A stretch of DNA of 29,371 bases from a virus: the IMG/VR virus record IMGVR_UViG_3300025873_000027, positions 1 to 29,371 of that record, one strand, 5' to 3'. A model generated the notes under the pieces. The model had not been told where the DNA came from, searched no databases, and saw nothing but the letters and a program-made list of their open reading frames with translations. How positions within the stretch are numbered: the first letter of the stretch is position 1; every line of letters begins with the position of its first letter. A program made the position numbers and the translations under genes. Positions 1,411 through 19,471 of this stretch are shown here, in pieces.

Positions 1411-2061
1411 CTAGTGTATAATTAAGCCTATTTTATGGCTCTCTTTTGATATGGCTATTAAATCATTTTTTGAAGCGTTAATATATCCTGCATTAATTAA
1501 GTCCGTTTCGCTTTCAAAAATTTTAGAATGTCTGTCTTTTGATTCATTAATTAACTTGTCATTTTTTGAACCTAAAGAAAAAATAAGCGTTAAATTTTCA
1601 GGTATTGATTCAGTTAATTTATCAAATAAAATTTTGCTTTTTGTGTATGCGTAAAATTGAACATTCGAAAATTTGTTTATAATTTCGAACCAACTATTAA
1701 TATACTCAAAATTGTAAAAATCGCCACTATCGTGAATTCGAACGTGCGAAGCTTTTCTTCGCTCTATTGCATTTGTCATTTTTTCAATGAATAGGCTTTT
1801 TTCTTTAGTCAACAAATATCTTTTTTCATACGCTTTTTTAGTATTTGTCCATATAAACGAACCTTTTCGGGCATAGCAAAATTTTGCGCATTCACCTGCA
1901 AAAGGACAAGTTGCTTTCCCTGTTGTGTGGCTTCTTAAGGCAGTAATGCCAAAATTGTAAAGTCTTATATTATTTTCTTTCGATGTTTTACGCATCTTGT
2001 CATTTTGCGTTAAAATTTGAGTATGTTTCAAATCAAATAAATCTTGTGTAGTGAATTTCAT
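1411..2061 (-). CDS. GP88-family protein
   Basis: A 216-residue protein resembling the phage GP88 family (gene product 88), whose biochemical role is not established. Diagnostic stretches are the cysteine cluster CPFAGECAKFCYARKG at about residues 52-67, the HDSGDFYN segment near 110-117, and the FYAYTKSK segment near 136-143. These occur in the same order and spacing as I recall for the family. The cluster spacing resembles metal- or iron-sulfur-binding Cys motifs, but I would not call it radical SAM from sequence alone. The second cysteine cluster I remember in the C-terminal part of many members is absent here, and the protein ends with KIGLIIH. The start lies 4 bp after the stop of a two-TM small protein. 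Confidence 0.7.
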   Translation of the reverse strand: MKFTTQDLFDLKHTQILTQNDKMRKTSKENNIRLYNFGITALRSHTTGKATCPFAGECAKFCYARKGSFIWTNTKKAYEKRYLLTKEKSLFIEKMTNAIERRKASHVRIHDSGDFYNFEYINSWFEIINKFSNVQFYAYTKSKILFDKLTESIPENLTLIFSLGSKNDKLINESKDRHSKIFESETDLINAGYINASKNDLIAISKESHKIGLIIH

Positions 2062-7547: not shown

Positions 7548-8630
7548 ATGTTAAAAATTGGAACAGATTTTAGTGGAATCGGATCACCCGAAACTGCTTT
7601 GAAACGATTAGGGATTCCTATAGAAGAGGTGTTCGCTTGTGAAATAGATAAATATGCTCGTAAGAGTTATGAAGCTTTACACTCACCTGTAACATTCTAC
7701 GAAGACATTACTACTCGTAACCATTCAGAAGTACCACAGCTCGATTTATATGTAGCAGGTTTCCCTTGTCAAACTTTTTCTATGGCAGGTAGGCGTAGAG
7801 GGTTTGAAGATACAAGAGGAACGCTTTTCTACAATGTAGCTGAGTTCATTAAAGAGAATCAACCGAATTGCTTTATATTAGAAAATGTTCGTGGATTGAT
7901 GTCACACGATAATGGTCGTACTTTTCAAACGATTATAGATGTATTAAGTAATGGAGGTGGAACGGTTAATAATCAAATGGGTTTAGACTCTATTGATAAT
8001 GGATTGGGTTATCACATTCATTATAAAGTTCTTAATACTAAGAATTTTGGTATACCTCAAAATCGTGAGCGTATATTTATTGTAGGATTCAAGCATTCTA
8101 GGGTGTTTAATTTTCCGAAAGAATTTCCTCTTAAATTAAAGCTTAAAGATATTCTTGAAGATAGCGTTGATGAAAAGTATTATCTTAGTGGTAAAATGCT
8201 TGAGTATTTAAAGACCGCCAAACGAGCTTTACCTTTTACTGACCCAAATACAAAGAATGTAACTAACTGTATAACGGCTAATTACCATAAGCAATCTACT
8301 GATATTGAGTATATAATTCACAACCTACAACGAAGAAGTGCAGATAGACCTTCGATTAAAAAGGATAAAAACGCAGGTGGAACAGGTCATCTAAGTAAAT
8401 CGGATGGAACTGTTTACTGTTTAGACTCAGCTAATACTCAGGCTGTGGAGAACAACAAACGAATAAGAAGACTAACTCCTTTAGAATGTTGGAGGCTTCA
8501 AGGATTTACAGATGAAGAATTTCATAAGGCTGAGAAGACTAATTCTAACAGCCAACTTTACAAGCAAGCAGGTAACTCGATTACGGTTAATGTAATGGTA
8601 GAGTTATTAAAGAAAATTTACCTAAAATAG
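7548..8630 (+). CDS. DNA (cytosine-5-)-methyltransferase
   Basis: A complete C5 cytosine methyltransferase, 360 residues. Motif I is GTDFSGIGSPETAL (5-18) for S-adenosylmethionine. Motif IV is GFPCQTFS with catalytic C74. Motif VI is ENV (112-114), motif VIII is QNRER (171-175), and the C-terminal motifs IX/X (RRLTPLECWRLQGF, YKQAGNSITVNV) complete the fold. The target-recognition region (about 185-300) is variable and does not reveal the site. No restriction endonuclease is recognised beside it, so it is an orphan that probably protects phage DNA from host restriction. A 54-bp gap with a possible weak promoter (TACATTCG at about 7518) precedes it. Confidence 0.93.
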   Translation: MLKIGTDFSGIGSPETALKRLGIPIEEVFACEIDKYARKSYEALHSPVTFYEDITTRNHSEVPQLDLYVAGFPCQTFSMAGRRRGFEDTRGTLFYNVAEFIKENQPNCFILENVRGLMSHDNGRTFQTIIDVLSNGGGTVNNQMGLDSIDNGLGYHIHYKVLNTKNFGIPQNRERIFIVGFKHSRVFNFPKEFPLKLKLKDILEDSVDEKYYLSGKMLEYLKTAKRALPFTDPNTKNVTNCITANYHKQSTDIEYIIHNLQRRSADRPSIKKDKNAGGTGHLSKSDGTVYCLDSANTQAVENNKRIRRLTPLECWRLQGFTDEEFHKAEKTNSNSQLYKQAGNSITVNVMVELLKKIYLK

Positions 8631-10426: not shown

Positions 10427-10564
10427 CTAGCTTCCACAAGCTTCGCAATCTTCATCTTCAATACCACAGGTTTCAGGTTGCTCTTGGTCTGTCAAACCCT
10501 CTATCCAACTACCAAATACATCTTCTGCTACTTCTTCGGGTGTTTTGTCTTTTCTTTTATCCAT
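10427..10564 (-). CDS. 45-aa acidic cysteine-containing protein
   Basis: MDKRKDKTPEEVAEDVFGSW... then a tail with CGIEDEDCEACGS. Three cysteines, two of them as CxxC at the C-terminus, suggest metal binding or redox activity; the protein is strongly acidic. It overlaps the T7-endonuclease-I-like gene by 37 bases in another frame and is followed by the operon terminator. The frame is short, so confidence is moderate. Function unknown. Confidence 0.5.
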   Translation of the reverse strand: MDKRKDKTPEEVAEDVFGSWIEGLTDQEQPETCGIEDEDCEACGS

Positions 10565-10926
10565 TCTATAGGTATAGTTTTATCAGCCCATTTAATATTA
10601 TGCTTCTCACACCATTGGCTGTATGTGGTTAGAGAGCCTTTGAAAATCTTGTTCTTATGTCGTTGAAAAACCATCCTAATATCTTTATCAGGATGTTGCT
10701 TGATGACTAACAGCATCTTCTTCCTGTCTGCTGAAGTAAATCGACCTTTTAGCTCACAAACAATTCCGTTTGGAAGTATAACATCGGGAGTATATTTGCG
10801 CTGTTCTGATACCTCGTAAAAGAGATTGAGAGATTCGTACTCAAATGGTACACCTTGGTCATCCAATAGTGAACAGACTTCTCTCTCATAATTACTTCGG
10901 AATCTTATGGTGGGGGTTATTCTCAT
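10528..10926 (-). CDS. T7 endonuclease I-like Holliday-junction resolvase
   Basis: 132 residues, close in pattern to phage T7 endonuclease I (gp3), which cuts four-way junctions and branched DNA before packaging. The nuclease core is complete: E14 in RSNYEREV, D48 in YTPDVILPNG, and E58-L-K60 in CELKGRF. Then DRKKMLLVIKQHPDKDIR and the C-terminal GSLTTYSQWCEKHNIKWADK and IPIEWIKE follow in T7 order. It lacks the T7 C-terminal extension. Located at the end of the late operon rather than with replication genes, so it probably debranches concatemers for packaging. It overlaps the HNH gene by 35 bases. Confidence 0.9.
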   Translation of the reverse strand: MRITPTIRFRSNYEREVCSLLDDQGVPFEYESLNLFYEVSEQRKYTPDVILPNGIVCELKGRFTSADRKKMLLVIKQHPDKDIRMVFQRHKNKIFKGSLTTYSQWCEKHNIKWADKTIPIEWIKEKTKHPKK

Positions 10927-11200
10927 AGTATGTTTTCTTATTATGGCATTTGTGGCAAAGCCCTTGAAGATTGGAAATTTCTAATTCAGAACCTCCGTTT
11001 TTTATGGGATTAATGTGATCCACCATTTGTGCTTCAGTTACTATACCTTTATCCTCACAATGAACGCATAACGGATTCTGTCTTAATACATATCCTCGTA
11101 GCTTGCGCCACTTAGTAGTTCGATAGAATGAAGTATCACCACCCCAAGATTGATTCTTCTTTAAGTAGTGAGGAGGTCTTTCTTTGGGTAACTTTGGCAT
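10892..11200 (-). CDS. HNH endonuclease
   Basis: 102 residues with a complete HNH core: CVHC zinc ligands (about 45-48), the DHI catalytic motif near 61-63 with following NPIKNGG, then SNLQGLCHKCHNKK with the second Cys pair. Such small HNH proteins in HK97-type phages often assist terminase in cutting at cos sites, usually from a gene next to terS. Here the gene lies about 17 kb from terS at the other end of the late operon. Either that role is performed in trans or, if the genome ends lie elsewhere, the distance is less than it seems. A homing-type nuclease is less likely given its compact operon position. Confidence 0.9.
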   Translation of the reverse strand: MPKLPKERPPHYLKKNQSWGGDTSFYRTTKWRKLRGYVLRQNPLCVHCEDKGIVTEAQMVDHINPIKNGGSELEISNLQGLCHKCHNKKTYYENNPHHKIPK

Positions 11201-15686: not shown

Positions 15687-18377
15687 TTAATTTCCCTCGA
15701 TAGGTGTAGTTGTCGAGATGTTACTGAAATAAGGTACTTGATGCAAATGGTTAGATGTTGATAAAGTTTCCCCACCTGTTTCGGCTGCAATTTTATTTCC
15801 TTGAATAGTAGCTATCTGAATACCTTCTGAGTCTAACGAACCATAAACCTGTACTCTAATATTTTGAGAACCCATCATTCCTTGTAATTTATCTAATGGA
15901 GCAATTACTTCGGGATTGCTTCTTGCACCTGAATATTCACCCATTAACCCTAATGTTGGACCAGATACAATACCACCATTGGCAAATGCAGGGATCGGTT
16001 GAGCAGCAATGGCAGCAATCTGAATAGCACCTGCAATACCAATTGCAATAGCAAGAGGTGGTACGGCAACATTAGCTGCGACCTGAGATGCTACCTGTAC
16101 GATAGCGTTAAACATAGCTTGTGCTTTTTCTAGCTTGGCTTGTTTTTTCTTTAGTTTATTAGATTTCTTGAACGAATCCTCTTCTAATTTTCTTAAAAGC
16201 TCTGCTTGCTGTTTAGATGTTGCTGATTGGTAGGCAGCAGACTCTTCCATTAAAGATTTCTTTCTATCAAAAAGTTCTTGGTCTTTAGCAATTTGTAAAT
16301 CGAACTGCGTATTTAGTACTTCATTTATTCCTGAGAATGCTGCCTCTACTCCCATTGCTATGTTCTCAAAAGTAGTTTTACCATTCTTTTGCATAGTACC
16401 AAATATTTCACCAACCGTTACTTGAACTGAGGTAAAGGCATCCTTTACTTTATCACTAAATGATTTAGTAACTTCATTTAGTGGACCAATAAACGGTGGT
16501 GGTGCTAAAACTCCAAAGCTTGATGATGCCTGGGTTGGGGTTGGTGTTCCAGTTGGGATTGGGGTTTTTGCTTGAGCTGCAGTTGAACCTATTTCATCTA
16601 ATTGTTTTAGGTAGTCAGCTACAGCTTGCGCAGCAGTATCGAATTGACTTGTATCTTTACTTAATTCATCTCTTAAATCTTCTAAAGCCTCTCTTTGGTT
16701 TTCAGTGATTTTATTATTAGACCCAAGAGTACCAATCCAAACCGTTGTATTTTTATTTAAGTCAAAATATTCACCTTTTATATTGCTTAGAGTTTTCTCT
16801 AATTTGGTTTGCGTAGAAAGATTACCACTCAGCTCAAATCCAACAGTTTTATAAATCTTTCTCAAAGCTTCTAAAGCCTCGTCTTCCTTGGCAATTAACT
16901 CACGACCCTTTTTAGACTTCTCGTTCATCAACTCTTGCAACCTCTCAGATTCAGCCTGTAGTTGTAGTTTTTTTAAGAACGAAGTATTAGATTGGTCTAA
17001 AGCTAGTTTTATATCTTCATTAGCAATCTTTTCAGCTTCCATATTCTCAAGGAAGCCTGGGTATTCAGTTTGTAACTCTTTTATAAGTTCAATCCTTTTT
17101 TCCGACCCCTCATTGGCAGACATCGCTCTTTCGGCTAGATTACTTAATGCTTCTTGTTCTTCTATAAGATTATCAGTAACGCTACTACTCTTCAAAGCTA
17201 AAAGCGCAAATGCACCACCCAATAATCCTATACCAATAGTAACGGGGTTAAGTAGAGCTATTAAAGCTCCCACACCTATTAATACTGGACCAAGTACAGT
17301 CATTATTCCACCTACTGTAATTATAAGCTTTTTAGTAGAGTCATCAAGATTAGCGAATCCTGAAGCAAATGAAGTTATACGACCAATTATAGGTACAACA
17401 ATCTCAGCGAGTAAAGCTCCTAATTCTAATTTAAGACCTTCTATAGCAGATTGCATTTTCTTAACTTTAGCGAAGGTTGTTTCACCCATCGCTTTAGCCA
17501 TCTCATCAAGTCTACCAGTATTCTTAGCATAACTCTTTGCTAACTCATCTACTTTCTTCTTATTTTTTGATAAAATTAATAGTTGAGCAGCAGCAGTTTT
17601 ACCTGCCATTGTGGATGCATCAATAATATCCATCTCACCTTTAGCAATTCGATCTAAGGTTTCACTAAATGGAATACCTTTTTGTGCTAATTCTATAAAT
17701 ATCTTACGAAGTCCTGTACCTGCTTTGGAAGCTTTGATACCATTATCCATAAGAACACCCATCATACCTGCTAACTGATTAAAATCAACACCAACAGAGT
17801 TAGCAGCCGTACCGGCGTGACCGAAAGCTGTACTAAAAGTACTAAGTTGAATAGATGAATTAGCCGATGCTGATGCTAAAGTGTTAGCCACGGAAGCTGC
17901 GTGTTCGGCAGATAATCCGAAAGCGTTTATTGAAGATGCTACGGTGTTGGCTGCAAGAGATAAATCTTCTCCTGTTGCTAAAGCTAATTTTAGTACGGAA
18001 GATTCCATACTCATAATTTGCTTTGGATTAAACCCTTTTCTACCAAAAACTAACTGTAAATCAGCTACTTGTTGTGCTGTAAATTGGGTGGTAGCACCTA
18101 ATCTTTTAGCTTCGGCAGTAAGCATTTTAAACTCTTCAGCCGTAGCTCCAGTTATAGTTTTAACTTTCATCATACCATTCTCAAAATTAGAGAATGTATC
18201 GAAAGCTGATTTACCTAAAGCTACAAGAGGCGCAGTAATCCCAAACGACATCATCGAACCTAATCGAGCAGAAGTTTTAGCAAATTTAGTAAGTGATTTG
18301 TTTGCTTTACCTAACCCAGATTCTAAGCCTTTTATATTGGCTGCGACAATTATCGAGATGGTTTTTATTGAACCCAT
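15687..18377 (-). CDS. Tail tape measure protein
   Basis: 896 residues. The N-terminal 1-300 contains the TP901-type tape-measure core (ENGMMKVKTITGATAEEFK, LGATTQFTAQQVADLQLVFG, VDFNQLAGMMGVLMDNGIKA). Hydrophobic stretches at about 345-390 (LIITVGGIMTVLGPVLIGVG) are the segments thought to enter the host membrane. A coiled-coil and Ala-rich part at about 690-790 precedes the usual Gly-rich ending (FANGGIVSGPTLGLMGEYSG). It sets tail length; at roughly 0.15 nm per residue the tail would be near 130 nm. The start ATG overlaps the stop of the frameshifted chaperone gene (TAATG). Confidence 0.95.
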   Translation of the reverse strand: MGSIKTISIIVAANIKGLESGLGKANKSLTKFAKTSARLGSMMSFGITAPLVALGKSAFDTFSNFENGMMKVKTITGATAEEFKMLTAEAKRLGATTQFTAQQVADLQLVFGRKGFNPKQIMSMESSVLKLALATGEDLSLAANTVASSINAFGLSAEHAASVANTLASASANSSIQLSTFSTAFGHAGTAANSVGVDFNQLAGMMGVLMDNGIKASKAGTGLRKIFIELAQKGIPFSETLDRIAKGEMDIIDASTMAGKTAAAQLLILSKNKKKVDELAKSYAKNTGRLDEMAKAMGETTFAKVKKMQSAIEGLKLELGALLAEIVVPIIGRITSFASGFANLDDSTKKLIITVGGIMTVLGPVLIGVGALIALLNPVTIGIGLLGGAFALLALKSSSVTDNLIEEQEALSNLAERAMSANEGSEKRIELIKELQTEYPGFLENMEAEKIANEDIKLALDQSNTSFLKKLQLQAESERLQELMNEKSKKGRELIAKEDEALEALRKIYKTVGFELSGNLSTQTKLEKTLSNIKGEYFDLNKNTTVWIGTLGSNNKITENQREALEDLRDELSKDTSQFDTAAQAVADYLKQLDEIGSTAAQAKTPIPTGTPTPTQASSSFGVLAPPPFIGPLNEVTKSFSDKVKDAFTSVQVTVGEIFGTMQKNGKTTFENIAMGVEAAFSGINEVLNTQFDLQIAKDQELFDRKKSLMEESAAYQSATSKQQAELLRKLEEDSFKKSNKLKKKQAKLEKAQAMFNAIVQVASQVAANVAVPPLAIAIGIAGAIQIAAIAAQPIPAFANGGIVSGPTLGLMGEYSGARSNPEVIAPLDKLQGMMGSQNIRVQVYGSLDSEGIQIATIQGNKIAAETGGETLSTSNHLHQVPYFSNISTTTPIEGN

Positions 18378-18745
18378 TATTTCTGCATTTTTTTAAGTAT
18401 TTCCTTATGTCGAGCAACATCTGCCTTTATTTGTTCAGGCGATGCAATAATCTTATTAGGTATGTTTTCATTATCCCAAGGAAGAGGTAGGAATTGTTTA
18501 GGTTTAAGAGGTCTTTTAAGGTTTGGTGATGCTATTATATGAGCCAACACCCTAGTTCGCTCCCAAGACTCTCTTATATTAGCTTGAGCTTGATTATTAT
18601 AACCTTTTAGAGTGTTGTTAAAGGAACGAGGGGTTAGTTCATATAATTGCTCATACGCTAACCCCAACATTCCTAATCCAATTTCCTCGAGTTTATCCCA
18701 ATCAATTTCTCCTGAGTCCTCATCGATTTCCTCTCCCTTGACTAC
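18377..18745 (-). CDS. Tail assembly chaperone, -1 frame extension (gpT-like)
   Basis: The frame open from 18745 to 18377 is in the -1 register relative to the 99-aa gene upstream and has no stop in between. A -1 slip at GGGAAAG therefore yields a 221-residue fusion: 99 residues, 25 bridging residues beginning VVKGEEIDEDSGE, and a 97-residue part starting MLGLAYEQLYELTPRSF. That last part resembles the second domain of siphophage tail chaperones, helical with a Trp/Arg core (ESWERTRVLAHIIASP). An independent start at ATG 18670 exists, but the unbroken -1 frame and position before the tape measure gene favour the fusion, as in lambda gpG/gpGT. Confidence 0.85.
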   Translation of the reverse strand, partial: VVKGEEIDEDSGEIDWDKLEEIGLGMLGLAYEQLYELTPRSFNNTLKGYNNQAQANIRESWERTRVLAHIIASPNLKRPLKPKQFLPLPWDNENIPNKIIASPEQIKADVARHKEILKKMQK

Positions 18746-19041
18746 TTTCCCTCGGCTTGGGGTTGATCCAATTGGAAAGCTTCAAAGATTTCATTTAACT
18801 TGCCGAAATCTTCATTATCTAACCAATCTTCAATATCAGCGATTTTGTAATTAAACTTTTCACCGTTTTTCTTCGCACCGTACTTTAAACCATAATATGC
18901 AATTATGCCTATATGTTCTAACTCAGTACCAAGTTTATTTAACTCATTTAATTTAAGACCACAATCCATACAGATGTGTTTTAATCCTAAATAAGAAAAC
19001 CTAATAGGTCGTAATTGACCACCTAACTCTACCTTTTTCAT
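18742..19041 (-). CDS. Tail assembly chaperone (gpG-like)
   Basis: 99 residues (MKKVELGGQLRPIRFSYLGL, ending QAEGK), lying between the tail tube and tape measure genes, the invariant place of the siphophage tail assembly chaperone. It is helical and moderately acidic, with two Cys (CMDCG) near 24-27. This is the short form; most ribosomes should stop at TAG 18744-18742, and a fraction slip to give the long form. Both coat the tape measure protein while the tube polymerises and are absent from the finished tail. Confidence 0.85.
   Translation of the reverse strand: MKKVELGGQLRPIRFSYLGLKHICMDCGLKLNELNKLGTELEHIGIIAYYGLKYGAKKNGEKFNYKIADIEDWLDNEDFGKLNEIFEAFQLDQPQAEGK
18745..18751 (-). promoter_or_regulatory. 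Programmed -1 frameshift slippery site GGGAAAG
   Basis: In the zero frame the codons are GAG GGA AAG TAG, so the heptamer G-GGA-AAG is in the correct X-XXY-YYZ phase and ends right at the stop codon. The same heptamer drives the lambda G/GT frameshift. After a one-base backward slip the reading continues GTA GTC AAG without stop into the downstream part. Confidence 0.9.
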
Positions 19042-19066: not shown

Positions 19067-19471
19067 CTACGATACTTCTAATTCAGCCGTTCCTGTTAAA
19101 GAAATAGACCAAGATGTGTTTTCCTCTACACCTGCATCCATAGATACACTTGTAATTAAGGCATCGCCTGTGTATGTAACTGGTGCTGGTGTTGCTGAAT
19201 CAGCATCGTCTAATACGAAAGTAACTACTACTTCACCTCCAGCAATTAACGCTGCTATGTTAGTATCAGAATCCCCTTCGGTAATATCCACAAAAGAATC
19301 ACCACTCATTTCCCAAGACATTAGTCCTGCTAAACTTTCAGACCAACCTGCTGATGATTTAGTTGTTGAATCTCTTAAATCTCTACTTATAGATAGAGAA
19401 GCAGAAGTACAATGTGCCAATGCTGTTCCAGCTATGGAAAGTACGACTCCTGTTGCATTTTGAATTGCCAT
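19067..19471 (-). CDS. Major tail tube protein
   Basis: 134 residues, beta-rich, with the pattern GVVLSIAGTALAHCTSASLS ... SAGWSESLAGLMSWEMSGDS ... YTGDALITSVSMDAGVEENT ... WSISLTGTAELEVS seen in small siphophage tail tube proteins (TP901-1/phi13 type). It polymerises as hexameric rings to form the non-contractile tail tube. Between the tail completion gene and the chaperone gene, as in the usual order. It has no extra Ig-like domain, which in this phage seems instead to sit in the neighbouring completion protein. Confidence 0.9.
   Translation of the reverse strand: MAIQNATGVVLSIAGTALAHCTSASLSISRDLRDSTTKSSAGWSESLAGLMSWEMSGDSFVDITEGDSDTNIAALIAGGEVVVTFVLDDADSATPAPVTYTGDALITSVSMDAGVEENTSWSISLTGTAELEVS

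Follow-up and report, generated by a model that had tools for sequence, protein, structure and literature searches.

A predicted lambda-type −1 frameshift in the putative tail assembly chaperone gene of a phage related to Bacteroidota phages

The closest described counterpart of the locus reported here is gpG/gpGT of phage lambda, a programmed −1 frameshift of the same type (PMC5009743). Frameshifts of the G/GT type are also described for tailed phages with dsDNA genomes (Xu, Hendrix and Duda 2004, cited in PMC5009743; PRFect sets, PMC10885494) and likewise involve two overlapping open reading frames (ORFs), which lie before the tape measure gene and are joined by a slippery site. The mean distance from slippery site to stop codon is 26 nt in the SEA-PHAGES set of PRFect and 36 nt in its Xu set (PMC10885494). 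Here, we describe a locus that falls within this known category (lambda gpG/gpGT-like programmed −1 frameshifting), in a 29,371-nucleotide stretch of viral DNA (IMG/VR record IMGVR_UViG_3300025873_000027; hereafter the window), whose less ordinary features are a distal hairpin and a stop codon that abuts the slippery site. In contrast to lambda, the window has its stop directly after the heptamer and a distal stem-loop in the −1 part, its proteins have no above-cut-off sequence match to lambda families, and its closest named relatives, phages of Cellulophaga and Bacteroides, infect Bacteroidota. An earlier note, made from the letters alone, had spoken of Flavobacteriia phages, which these relatives make plausible but do not prove.

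The features of the locus, all on the minus strand, are as follows.

19067..19471 (−): upstream gene, major tail (tube) protein (PF06199, E 1.2e-11; phrog_1407, E 1.8e-21)
18742..19041 (−): putative short form, a 99-aa gpG-like tail assembly chaperone ORF, TAG included (reading frame, 89 relatives, weak BFVD fold matches)
18745..18751 (−): slippery heptamer G-GGA-AAG in X-XXY-YYZ phase (kept by all 89 distinct relatives; its codons invariant in 30 diverse sequences)
18742..18744 (−): zero-frame stop TAG abutting the heptamer (distance 0 in 85/89, 3 nt in 4/89)
18729..18739 (−): purine-rich tract AAGGGAGAGGA just 3′ of the stop, encoding K/E-G-E-E in the −1 frame (largely conserved)
18377..18745 (−): −1 frame extension of 122 aa, the T-like part, TAA included (phrog_16333, E 9e-18)
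18668..18670 (−): first internal ATG of the −1 frame, start of a 97-aa ORF (not universally conserved)
18623..18673 (−): RNA stem-loop in the −1 coding part, with arms 18673..18653 and 18642..18623 (folding energy against synonymous-codon shuffles)
15687..18377 (−): downstream gene, tape measure protein (PF10145, E 1.6e-29; phrog_1533, E 1.8e-69)

The upstream ORF (19041..18742, −) encodes 99 residues and ends in the codons GAG GGA AAG TAG, so that GGGAAAG (18751..18745, −) sits at offset 2 within its frame (G.GGA.AAG), in phase and directly at the stop, just as the earlier note had read it. The −1 frame stays open over 18781..18377 (−), bounded upstream by a TGA (18784..18782) and ending at a TAA (18379..18377), and frame reading bears out that it runs up to where the tape measure gene starts. 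When the two frames are joined at the heptamer, the product is the long form of 221 residues that had been claimed (99 + 122, with the junction ...QAEGK-VVKGEE...); the downstream portion had, however, been given as 97 aa, which is the number of residues that follow the first ATG (18670), whereas the −1 frame in fact adds 122. The TAA of the long form and the tape measure start codon have one base in common (TAATG; 18377..18379, −), an overlap by which tape measure translation could be coupled to frameshifted ribosomes, and its spacing differs among relatives. Taken together, heptamer conservation, the purifying selection acting on the −1 frame, the constraint on synonymous sites of the heptamer and gene order support the lambda-type programmed −1 frameshift proposed earlier, and we consider it very probable (roughly 95%), as judged from sequence, that the locus is a single tail assembly chaperone gene with two products, the longer of which would arise by −1 slippage at GGGAAAG.

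Relatives were collected by scans of viral contigs and, after removal of duplicates, comprise 89 distinct sequences that are 74-100% identical in the 99-aa part. Mutation of the heptamer in close relatives had been set beforehand as a refuting test; no such mutation was found, and GGGAAAG is in phase in every one of the 89. The stop comes one codon later in four and directly in 85, the latter being a distance of 0 nt that is unusual against the means of the PRFect sets; 83 sequences use TAG as this stop and six use TAA. A set of 30 diverse sequences shows no variation at either codon, GGA or AAG, and has G throughout in the last position of the codon before them. In the late genes of the window, GGA accounts for 28% of glycine codons, AAG for 29% of lysine codons and TAG for 14% of stops, the preferred codons being GGT, AAA, GAA and TAA; conservation of the heptamer goes beyond chance. 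In the same 30 sequences, the heptamer has a synonymous conservation value of 1.29, at about the 95% level for the gene maximum (1.288), a statistic that is marginal when taken alone because equally high values occur near the gene start; the invariance of the heptamer is the stronger fact. The purine-rich tract just 3′ of the stop reads AAGGGAGAGGA in the window and mostly GAGGGAGAGGA in relatives, and is kept although the protein constraint there is only E/K-G-E-E.

The alternative that survives best, although we regard it as very unlikely, is that of two independent genes, in which the 97-aa protein would be made from its own start (ATG 18670) or by ribosomes that re-initiate past the TAG. 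An in-frame ATG is indeed present at 18670, and a start codon lies near this position in most relatives; some of them, however, have TTG, GTG or a codon that is no start in its place, and in the window the ATG sits within a strong hairpin. The invariance of the heptamer would also lack a reason if the genes were independent. The roughly 25 codons upstream of the ATG are conserved as −1-frame protein: within the 75 nt that follow the heptamer, none of 40 distinct sequences has a stop in the −1 frame, whereas both other frames have stops in all 40, and the −1 frame upstream of the first possible start has a pN/pS of 0.27 in these 40 sequences, indicating purifying selection. Differences in this stretch fall mostly on third codon positions (4097:2187:8342 by position), and residues W16, D17, E20 and G25 of the extension, all upstream of the 18670 ATG, are invariant. 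Since the zero frame has already ended, no other coding frame accounts for this constraint, and because the −1 frame is constrained before any start, initiation at 18670 is not the sole source of the downstream part. These data support the reading that the second part would be translated as an extension rather than solely from its own start; independent translation from 18670 alone seems unlikely, and an extra internal product is possible.

Still less probable is the joining of the frames by transcriptional rather than ribosomal slippage. This possibility draws on distant Cellulophaga and Bacteroides relatives, whose junctions are stretches of 8-10 A on which the polymerase could slip. The Cellulophaga phages phi39:1, phi10:1 and phi17:1 and Bacteroides phage F4 have an ORF pair in the same place before the tape measure gene, and homology to the window family is supported by profile matches of the downstream parts of phi39:1 (99.7%), F4 (98.4%) and phi17:1 (96.8%) and of the upstream part of phi10:1 (96.5%); the remaining profile comparisons with the parts of these four phages were not significant. 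Unlike the GGGAAAG of the window, the junction of phi39:1 and phi10:1 is composed of eight A and puts the second ORF in frame +1 (or −2), while that of F4 has nine A and that of phi17:1 ten, with the second frame at −1 in both. By comparison, the junction in the window and in all 89 close relatives contains only GGG and AAA runs, which, to our knowledge, are too short for known transcriptional slippage, and the conserved unit is a ribosomal heptamer in codon phase. All four pairs are annotated as separate hypothetical genes, except that the first ORF of phi10:1 is unannotated. In our numbering of loci, the A-run junctions of the Cellulophaga and Bacteroides pairs lie at about 2148-2156 (L160), 1433-1441 (L161), 1458-1466 (L162) and 1189-1198 (L247), and a further distant relative (L165) carries GGGAAAG in phase roughly 30 nt ahead of its stop. 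That the split is a sequencing error or a decayed gene, as might be suspected when the window is one virus contig that lacks close named relatives, is refuted by the relatives, since the same split occurs at the same site in 89 distinct sequences and both parts are conserved as protein.

In the proposed −1 slippage model, most ribosomes would end at the TAG and produce the 99-aa short form, while a minority would shift, with tRNA-Gly and tRNA-Lys slipping back by one base on G-GGA-AAG (to GGG-AAA). Shifted ribosomes would then read 122 codons in the −1 frame to give the 221-aa protein, and tandem slippage of this type would be expected, by analogy to lambda, to generate few long forms among many short ones (PMC5009743). 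If the analogy to gpG/gpGT extends to function, the common part would serve as a coat on the tape measure protein and the extension would bring in tail tube subunits, with neither product remaining in the virion. What the sequences show is the site with its phase and strict conservation, the coding constraint on the −1 frame and the order of the genes; the slippage itself, its efficiency, the tandem mechanism and the chaperone roles are best read as predictions. We also speculate that slow termination at the abutting stop gives ribosomes a second chance to slip.

The putative chaperone function is deduced mainly from the position of the gene between the tail tube and tape measure genes. Profile matches of the −1 part to Phage_TAC_6 (E 0.011, 16.6 bits versus the 23.4 required) and a match to the Pfam family Phage_tail_T (E 0.093) remain below cut-off, and the PHROG matches of both parts are to families of ‘unknown function’. 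AlphaFold models were made for fold searches; a search of the PDB with the model of the short form gave nothing significant, and a search of BFVD returned matches with weak E-values to viral proteins, some of them named tail assembly chaperone. One of the fold matches, the 247-residue viral protein A0A0K1LMC7, covers both parts, as the joined form would. Weak as they are, these matches of profile and fold are in line with tail assembly chaperones. Sequence searches for solved structures found none, and scans of bacterial genome contigs found no relatives in bacterial genomes.

The stem-loop begins 71 nt past the heptamer in the window, lies in a range of 60-95 nt downstream and is the most structured place of the gene (z −4.5 against synonymous-codon shuffles in the window). 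Across 18 representatives, the median z is −3.5, and the structure is far beyond synonymous-codon shuffles in 16, the two in which it is absent both belonging to one clade; judged by energy, 73 of 87 sequences have a strong form of it, and it changes about twice on the tree. Cells of the stem-loop are paired in 83.5%, compared with at most 48% when slid, and covariation of the stem is above all shuffles in a shuffling test. A tree-based test of paired covariation in the distal stem was not significant, with few independent events, and RNAalifold over the whole region recovered a partial stem only; since independent covariation events are too few, the evidence for the stem is its folding energy relative to synonymous shuffles. 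An Rfam search gave a chance-level match only. The region adjoining the heptamer is not unusually folded, either in the window against synonymous shuffles or, within the 104 nt 3′ of the heptamer, in most of 10 relatives, and it thus contains no classical adjacent stimulator.

The stem-loop itself is too distant to act as a usual stimulator and is reached only by ribosomes that have already shifted. Its 5′ arm contains the internal ATG (18668..18670, −), and our best guess, as yet unproved, is that it masks this start codon, a role that we favour because initiation in Flavobacterium is reported to be tuned by mRNA structure (PMC6847099). We more doubtfully entertain the idea that the hairpin and the abutting stop act as a coordinated control, a two-element version of the lambda switch in which the hairpin hides the sole early start codon of the −1 part and the adjacent stop tunes slippage. 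If so, the downstream part would be produced only via frameshifting, in hosts whose ribosomes rarely use Shine-Dalgarno sequences. Bacteroidota ribosomes are described as handling Shine-Dalgarno pairing differently (PMC8710568; also PMC9976891).

If the −1 slippage reading is correct, the lambda heptamer is in use, and strictly kept, across a large group of marine phages related to Bacteroidota phages, for which a limited literature search found no earlier report of a heptamer frameshift. Annotation splits such genes into hypothetical ones, and the conserved pattern offers a simple rule for joining them. The junctions GGGAAAG, A8, A9 and A10 form a natural series for studying how recoding signals change.

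Elsewhere in the window, a C-5 cytosine DNA methyltransferase gene (7548..8630, +; PF00145, E 2.7e-76) lies amid replication genes, a GP88 family protein is encoded at 1411..2061 (−; PF17338, E 1.1e-38) and a Phage endonuclease I gene (10528..11200, −; PF05367, E 2.5e-46) adjoins an HNH endonuclease gene (PF01844). Just downstream of the terminase large subunit gene, 25385..25879 (−) encodes a small protein that weakly matches sigma-70 region 4.
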